The position numbers and the translations under genes are program-made. This document shows, in pieces, positions 12,521 to 12,819 of a stretch of 12,819 nucleotides of DNA. Each line of letters opens with the position of its first letter. The stretch's first letter is position 1. Source of the DNA: Kiritimatiellia bacterium (GTDB lineage: Bacteria > Verrucomicrobiota > Kiritimatiellia > RFP12 > DVOR01); NCBI GenBank assembly GCA_017548245.1, contig JAFYMU010000068.1, positions 1 through 12,819 of the forward strand, read 5' to 3'. The notes beneath the pieces were generated by a model, which saw only the letters and a list, made by a program, of their open reading frames with translations, made no database searches and had not been told where the DNA came from.

Positions 12521-12565
12521 CTAAAACAACAATGGCCCCCGCCGTTACTTACCCTGCGGAGGCCA
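12521..12565 (-). terminator. Attenuator-type terminator in the leuA leader
   Basis: On the RNA, GGCCTCCGC (complement of 12556-12564) pairs with GCGGGGGCC (complement of 12534-12542), a 9-base stem with one U-G pair. An outer U-A pair extends it to 10. The loop has 13 bases. The tail is AUUGUUGUUUU, U-rich but interrupted. It ends about 45 bases before the leuA start and 21 bases after the leader-peptide stop, the place expected for an attenuator. Confidence 0.75.
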
Positions 12566-12585
12566 ATTGGTGTGCATCAAACGCG

Positions 12586-12675
12586 TTACTTACACTGCAT
12601 GACGCTCCGCTTTTCATCGCCTTTAAGCGACAAAAGGGTAAGTCGAAACAACGTGTTCTGCGTATTGAATGTCAT
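12586..12675 (-). CDS. leuL: leu leader peptide (29 residues, five Leu codons in nine)
   Basis: A short frame starting at ATG (12673-12675) and ending at TAA (12586-12588). The peptide is MTFNTQNTLFRLTLLSLK followed by GDEKRSVMQCK. Residues 9-17 contain Leu at 9, 12, 14, 15 and 17 (TTG, CTT, CTT, TTG, CTT). Such a run just upstream of leuA and of a terminator hairpin is the mark of a leader peptide whose translation measures charged tRNA-Leu. I see no clear Shine-Dalgarno before the ATG; transcription may begin close to the start codon. The reading frame stays open upstream into the repeat region to the window edge, so a longer protein is formally possible, but the repeat-derived residues do not look like a protein. 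Confidence rests on codon content plus context. Confidence 0.75.
   Translation of the reverse strand: MTFNTQNTLFRLTLLSLKGDEKRSVMQCK
12605..12653 (-). promoter_or_regulatory. Alternative-pairing segments of the leuA attenuator
   Basis: On the RNA, GCGGAG (complement of 12605-12610), inside the leader-peptide frame, can pair with CUCCGC in the 5' arm of the terminator (complement of 12556-12561). That would act as an antiterminator. Upstream, the Leu-codon stretch CGTTGTTTCGACTTACCCT (complement of 12635-12653) can pair with AGTGTAAGTAACG at the leader-peptide stop (complement of 12584-12596), with one mismatch and one bulge, giving the 1:2 protector hairpin of the classical model. Pairings were found by eye; energies were not computed. 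Confidence 0.55.
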
Positions 12676-12743: not shown

Positions 12744-12819
12744 GGGTTCTAGGTTCTAAGTTCTGGGTTCCCGGAGTTTCCGGACGTTCCAGATGTTCCG
12801 GAGGTTCCGGAATCCACAC
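12744..12819. repeat. Degenerate short tandem repeat, unit 7 then 9 bases (runs off the right edge)
   Basis: The core GTTCT/GTTCC recurs at 12746, 12753, 12760, 12767, about 12777, 12786, 12795 and 12804. Spacings are 7, 7, 7, 10, 9, 9 and 9. The left half has units like AGGTTCT and the right half units like GTTCCGGAN. I see no gene or stable hairpin in it. It may continue beyond the window. Confidence 0.8.

Follow-up and report, generated by a model that had tools for sequence, protein, structure and literature searches.

A probable leucine-sensing transcription attenuator with a predicted near-leaderless leader ORF upstream of leuA in uncultured Kiritimatiellia

Introduction

Is the leuA gene of an uncultured gut bacterium placed behind a transcription attenuator that reads the supply of charged Leu-tRNA? 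The leu operon attenuator of Salmonella and Escherichia coli, catalogued in Rfam as Leu_leader and using CUA as Leu codons in E. coli, provides the model for such a device. Leader-peptide attenuation was known from Proteobacteria and Actinobacteria by 2010, when the Firmicutes were added (available text of PMC2965389). An earlier note proposed a classical leucine attenuator ahead of leuA in the DNA considered here, and held that it would deserve recording if the host lay outside the Proteobacteria. It does: NCBI taxonomy places Candidatus Spyradenecus, the genus to which a genome search assigns the window, in the Lentisphaerota of the PVC group. A literature search that lacked most subscription journals found, among the papers listed, no published report of leader-peptide attenuators in this lineage. 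We examined the region in the window (the whole 12,819-nt stretch analyzed, contig JAFYMU010000068.1) and in related genomes, and conclude that leuA is very probably preceded by a ribosome-mediated attenuator sensing charged Leu-tRNA.

Results

The leuA upstream region is laid out like an attenuator

Inspection of the sequence located all elements of an attenuator layout on the minus strand of the window:

12714-12709, minus strand: -35-like hexamer TTGCGG, matching TTGACA at 3 of 6 positions, with a 17-nt spacer to the -10 element; its TTG is invariant in a 15-sequence alignment
12694-12686, minus strand: extended -10 element TGT-TATTGT (hexamer TATTGT at 12691-12686), 10 nt before the leader ATG
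12675-12586, minus strand: leader ORF of 29 codons, with ATG at 12675 and TAA at 12588-12586; peptide MTFNTQNTLFRLTLLSLKGDEKRSVMQCK
12651-12644, minus strand: segment 1, UUGUUUCG in the window and GGCCUUCG in several relatives, which can pair with segment 2
12645-12640, minus strand: CGA-CTT dicodon (Arg11-Leu12), found in R-L type leaders of families f1, f3 and f4
12634-12613, minus strand: internal hairpin P1 over the Leu-codon region
12610-12600, minus strand: segment 2, the antiterminator 5' strand GCGGAGCGTCA, best leader duplex partner of segment 3
12565-12556, minus strand: segment 3, the terminator 5' arm TGGCCTCCGC, placed by sequence, duplex scan and alignment
12542-12533, minus strand: segment 4, the terminator 3' arm GCGGGGGCCA
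12532-12523, minus strand: U-rich tail TTGTTGTTTT, directly after the terminator stem in the sequence
12488-12485, minus strand: AGGA, the probable Shine-Dalgarno sequence of leuA, from the sequence
12476-10908, minus strand: leuA, 2-isopropylmalate synthase, the gene presumed to be regulated (TIGR00973, 685.6 bits; cut-off 598.7)
10815-10237, minus strand: FumA C-terminus/TtdB-family hydratase beta subunit, the next gene (TIGR00723, 153.2 bits; cut-off 145.15)

The minus-strand sequence bears out the 29-codon frame with five Leu codons in nine positions that had been described for this region; they are codons 9, 12, 14, 15 and 17. The terminator is as the earlier note had it, a 10-base stem with a U-rich tail, except that the gap between stop codon and stem is 20 nt and not 21. 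Its stem, TGGCCTCCGC:GCGGGGGCCA, has 10 pairs including one G-U and closes a 13-nt loop; a simple promoter and terminator scan of the window missed it because that scan allows loops of at most 8 nt. The claimed complementarity of GCGGAG (12610-12605) to CTCCGC (12561-12556) is also present. It can be lengthened to GCGGAG-C-GTCA : TGGC-CTCCGC, with a single bulge and at -15.2 kcal/mol, which makes this the strongest partner of segment 3 between the leader ATG and the stem. The region thus has the product-codon-rich short ORF of a classical attenuator and an intrinsic terminator between ORF and gene.

Searches for known elements gave little. Rfam returned no leader family and no T-box for the window at E <= 1, only a tRNA and a sub-threshold AsrC match, and none for 11 related loci at the gathering threshold. 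The fold of positions 12690-12477 is only mildly more stable than its shuffles (z = -1.82).

From this layout we infer how the region would operate. Transcription would begin 2-4 nt upstream of the leader ATG, giving a near-leaderless 5' end on which a ribosome would load. With leucine scarce, this ribosome would stall on Leu codons 9-17; segment 2, left uncovered, could then bind segment 3 ahead of the synthesis of segment 4, allowing read-through into leuA. With leucine plentiful, the ribosome would pass codon 18 and cover segment 2 en route to the stop; segment 3 would then be free, the 3:4 helix would form and transcription would end at about 12523.

Two further features of the neighborhood were seen. 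The hydratase beta subunit gene, possibly co-transcribed with leuA, is unexpected company directly downstream of it, and by eye similar DNA lies beside leuA in two same-genus relatives (L004, L010). Short repeats occupy 12745-12815, upstream of the promoter-like element: GGTTCTA twice, then four CCGGA-rich units of 18 nt with 9-nt spacing.

Leader, hairpin P1 and terminator are conserved across the genus

Counting the window's own genome, 15 of the 17 same-genus genomes yielded a leuA match; the assemblies of G002 and G013 gave none. All 15 loci have a Leu-rich leader (27-29 codons, 5-8 of them Leu), P1 and the terminator. Loss of the Leu run or of the alternative stems in close relatives, which the earlier note had named as evidence against its reading, is therefore not what these genomes show, with the 2:3 pairing retained at 85%.

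In an alignment of the 15 sequences (A1), the 3:4 helix is paired in 96.6% of cells and 3 of its 10 pairs show changes on both sides; for P1 the figures are 98.1% and 4 of 7. Segments 2 and 3 pair in 85.2% of cells, with double changes at none of their pairs, and 1:2 is the weakest helix of the set (70.8%). The covariation score of the whole structure was reached by 0 of 500 shuffles, while slid structures were 45-55% paired; further pair types did not rise above the shuffles (438 of 500 reached the observed number). The rows of this alignment are related, so none of these shuffle counts is a probability.

An antiterminator that excludes the terminator is supplied by the 2:3 complementarity, though without support from covariation and with another best partner in 3 of 15 loci. 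In 12 of 15 loci, segment 3 finds its top leader partner 22-24 nt ahead of the stop codon; in L010, L012 and L015 that partner is elsewhere. Exchanging segments 2 and 3 among genomes yielded no clear sign of covariation (p ~0.07 per family); segment 3 hardly varies. A stem closing the ORF (P0, start region with post-stop region) convinced by eye, but its swap values (p = 0.17 for 13 f1 sequences, 0.019 for 11 f3 sequences) led us not to claim it.

A covariance model gave a single strong match per genome (E <= 6.8e-12) in 15 of the 17, each time immediately upstream of leuA. Weaker matches elsewhere in them reached E = 0.002 at best, with at most 150 candidates scored per genome.

Ribosome position and the choice between the two folds

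The earlier note had suggested folding the leader with part of it masked. We folded transcripts cut 8 nt after segment 3, with a 30-nt mask standing for the ribosome. Across 15 f1 leaders, pairing of segment 3 with the leader averaged 0.77 for a ribosome on the Leu codons and 0.51 for one at the stop codon (13 of 15 higher at Leu); the corresponding means for 15 f3 leaders were 0.75 and 0.38 (higher in 14 of 15). In the window itself, segment 3 pairing was ~0.9 for A-site codons 2-18 and ~0 at codon 19, the last Leu codon being 17, so that the Leu codons agree with the ribosome positions that permit 2:3. Three leaders (L008, L015, L142) gave the opposite result, with the stop value above the Leu value. 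In these in silico folds, a ribosome stalled at the regulatory codons leaves segment 2 free. With the ribosome at the stop, 2:3 pairing in the window was 0.49, that is, about half of it is still possible.

Without a ribosome, the fold made before segment 4 was the antiterminator in the window (0.90; f1 mean 0.48). Untranslated transcripts may accordingly read through in this model, unlike those with a textbook protector. The classical reading as a whole is supported, with most of the features that a sequence can test in place, but it departs from the textbook in this ribosome-free antiterminator, and the 1:2 helix, the candidate protector, is only 71% paired.

At full-length equilibrium, 3:4 pairing in the window came to 0.74 when no ribosome was present and to 0.95-0.96 when one was. 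In 14 f1 leaders the terminator prevails at almost every ribosome position, only L005 and (at codon 14) L012 switching clearly. If the switch is real, the choice must therefore be kinetic, set by the order of events. A terminator that forms in nearly all states at equilibrium would also suit constitutive partial termination, or a hairpin that ends an independent small transcript, the Leu-rich ORF being incidental; attenuators can release sRNAs, such as rnTrpL of Sinorhizobium meliloti (in the available part of PMC7298713). We regard this explanation as improbable: segment 2, inside the ORF, is still complementary to segment 3 in most same-genus loci, and the amino acid specificity described below speaks against it as well.

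A promoter-like element close to the leader ATG

A transcription start downstream of 12675 would have refuted the earlier note's reading. The -10-like element puts the predicted start upstream of that position, though only just, and a strict consensus promoter scan of the window found none; the hexamers match the consensus too weakly. By general promoter geometry, a start 7-9 nt after the -10 element would give a 5' UTR of 2-4 nt, and translation of the leader is probably leaderless. The motif TGnTATnnT lies 6-11 nt before a leader ATG in 15/15 same-genus loci.

The best match to AGGAGG in the 14 nt before the ATG covers 2-4 of 6 positions in 30 f1 and f3 leaders. More broadly, TTGAC was counted 48 times between 20 and 70 nt ahead of in-frame ATGs in 32 class-level leaders, 32 times at 34-40 nt, and CTTG[CT] 45 times in 59 order-level leaders, 31 times at 37-42 nt; both motifs had been picked after the sequences had been seen. 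These distances likewise leave no room for a ribosome-binding site. Most f3 leaders of the LLLNGLLLL type (g3, g11, g22, g31) are exceptions: by eye, their -10-like element lies 20 nt or more upstream, and they are therefore not leaderless.

Leucine leaders before leuA recur across the order and class

A leuA match (E <= 1e-140) was present in 103 of 161 genomes of the order, with 104 matches in total; we analyzed 78 of their upstream regions, leaving out 26. Requiring at least four Leu in nine codons and a terminator within 90 nt, we found a Leu-rich ORF with a terminator at 60 of 78 loci, against 1/234 dinucleotide shuffles and 2/78 reverse complements. Positives occurred in f1 (15/15), f2 (1/2), f3 (35/43), f4 (5/12), f5 (1/3) and f6 (3/3). 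Leader types vary (LRLTGLWLL, LLLNGLLLLALTRRG, SRLTNLALL, GLLLRSLSLLV), yet all are rich in Leu and keep the terminator. Runs of other amino acids reached at most 14 of 78 loci (Gly, next best after Leu), a specificity that argues against an incidental ORF.

Outside the order, the class gave 35 positives at 70 leuA loci, taken mostly from the top of the ranked matches (159 of 240 genomes had a leuA match), against 1/210 shuffles and 0/70 reverse complements. No attenuator was detected at the remaining 35 of 70 class loci, nor at 18 of 78 order loci, and some positives with loosely leucine-rich ORFs may be due to chance. Elsewhere in the phylum, 3 of 26 loci were positive, all in family f52; the 26 came from 33 out-of-class genomes with a leuA match, seven f54 genomes being left out. 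In three f52 loci (L374, L377, L379; same phylum, other class), two leaders and two terminators may stand in tandem before leuA, the first rich in Leu and the second in Ile/Leu/Val.

Class loci that lack a detected ORF-plus-terminator pair would fit Rho-dependent or translational control exerted through the leader ORF, and leader ORFs with no clear terminators precede mycobacterial cys operons (according to the available text of PMC1262725). Such control is extremely improbable for the window, where, as in 15/15 same-genus loci, a strong intrinsic terminator with a covarying stem stands between leader and leuA.

A set of 80 leuA loci from a sequence search contained 8 positives among 8 Kiritimatiellae and 3 among 72 loci from other groups. 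Two of these three (L069, L111) look spurious, their ORFs lying far upstream. The third, L104 from a Planctomycetota MAG, looks real: leader MIRRRDNLSLLNLLALGLR lies ~173-116 nt upstream of the match to leuA, together with a long stem resembling a terminator, and may belong to a leu attenuator in the Planctomycetota.

Tryptophan leaders precede trpE-like genes

We scored as trpE-like the best TIGR00564 match in 27 genomes of the order, all of them below the cut-off (best 511.9, against 517.7) and with six weaker ones left out. A Trp leader (W..W) with a terminator preceded 19 of the 27, against 0/135 shuffles and 0/27 reverse complements. Leu-type leaders stood before 1 of 27 trpE-like genes and Trp-type leaders before 2 of 78 leuA genes; since the two types so rarely swap, codon choice follows the pathway. 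That trpE-like genes take Trp and hardly ever Leu further argues against a Leu-rich ORF that accompanies a constitutive terminator or sRNA by accident.

Among these 27 upstream regions (L250-L276), the Trp leaders read RWLWRGDSPER in the window's genus and are of WWWR type elsewhere, and several show by eye the near-leaderless promoter layout. Before ilvB, a Leu or branched-chain amino acid (BCAA) leader with a terminator was absent in 13/13 f1 loci (the window's genus). Overall, a BCAA- or Leu-rich leader with a terminator was found at 4 of 30 ilvB loci, in families f2, f5 and f6: L280 (f5; ending in LMLLVVVAVIIITV), L281 (f2), L282 (f6) and L285 (f2).

A fixed CGA codon precedes the presumed sensing codon

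Among 32 R-L type leaders (15 f1, 14 f3 and 3 f4, related and so not independent samples), CGA encodes the core Arg in all 32, followed by CTT for Leu in 31; the Arg is codon 11 in 27. This set leaves out L142 and L140 (no Arg there), L151, L153 and L179 (CGA-CTT), L152 (CGC-CTT) and ORFs in other frames. CGA is otherwise rare, accounting for 4 of 462 Arg codons in the 15 leuA genes of f1 and 11 of 263 in eight from f3; of the other Arg codons in the R-L leaders themselves, 2 of 51 are CGA. The other Leu codons of these leaders vary (52 CTT, 45 CTG, 37 TTG, 8 CTC, 7 TTA, 4 CTA). Before the first TGG of the trp leaders, CGA occurs in 10/10 same-genus cases and not in the other families examined.

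In G008, a same-genus genome 93% complete, all 43 tRNA matches were assigned; they included Arg anticodons ACG, CCG, UCU and CCU, and no UCG tRNA-Arg was found among them. CGA should therefore be read by an inosine (I34) tRNA-Arg, apparently the only one able to do so.

One tentative idea, which we hold with considerable doubt, is that CGA would serve as a built-in pacing codon, either pausing the ribosome and so bringing it into step with the polymerase, or slowing the reading of the Leu or Trp codon that follows, which would make that codon more sensitive to charging. In the hisL speedometer of Salmonella, an inserted CGA-CGA is handled as slowly translated, with high his-lac expression (in the available text of PMC11805395); that pair is artificial, whereas here a single natural CGA stands directly before the sensing codon. 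The effect may also not be one of codons. The base after CGACTT is A in 31 of 32 leaders though the residue changes (Thr, Ser, Lys, Met; Pro in L004), so the constraint may be on nucleotides, and CGACUUA may be a nucleotide-level signal.

Conservation of CGACTTA beyond the needs of the peptide could likewise point to a protein- or RNA-bound switch in which the Leu codons matter only as pairing sequence. Such a switch has been suggested for the LEU element of Actinobacteria, in which mutating the Leu codons did not have the effects expected of classical attenuation (as the available text of PMC1262725 describes). The window offers a candidate pairing, its Leu segment ACTTACCCT being fully complementary to the terminator loop AGGGTAAGT (-13.5 kcal/mol). 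We rejected this pairing as a general element: it is weak in L003, L005, L008 and L015 (-1.8 to -4.9 kcal/mol), in a comparison that used, for L006, a segment other than its core. Leader sequences also differ between families while the Leu codons stay, no Rfam leader family matched, and the Trp counterpart argues for codon sensing. We judge a bound switch very improbable, and favor a ribosome that senses leucine through its codons.

Discussion

The predicted attenuator shares with its enterobacterial counterpart a Leu-rich leader peptide, mutually exclusive hairpins and an intrinsic terminator before leuA. It differs in having no Rfam match, in using CTT and TTG rather than CUA and in its CGA-CTT core. 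If the predicted start is right, there is also no room for a Shine-Dalgarno sequence. The ribosome-free fold in the window is not a protector.

A leaderless leader peptide has a precedent in trpL of S. meliloti, where transcription of the attenuator starts with the leader ORF's own ATG (available text of PMC7298713). That system concerns Trp, belongs to the Alphaproteobacteria and has a known start site, whereas the start in the window is predicted. Attenuators of Actinobacteria and Firmicutes likewise place a leader peptide and a terminator before amino acid genes, in other lineages and before other genes, a likeness of description (available portions of PMC1262725 and PMC2965389). The actinobacterial leuA element is portrayed as a pseudoknot, linking the Leu-codon run with the Shine-Dalgarno sequence of leuA, with doubtful codon sensing (PMC1262725, in its available text), and the title of PMC5794164 names a leucine-rich attenuator peptide in Staphylococcus aureus. 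What sets the present case apart is a leader ORF predicted to be near-leaderless, combined with a fixed CGA just ahead of the presumed sensing codon; the mechanism at its core is already known.

Should CGA prove to be a pacing element, ribosome-polymerase timing in attenuation would reduce to a single-codon test. That predicted attenuators stand so often ahead of leuA in one class of the PVC group, and ahead of trpE-like genes in the order studied here, points to a mechanism with a longer history, or an easier origin, than has been supposed. A prediction also follows for the control of leucine and tryptophan synthesis in these uncultured gut bacteria.
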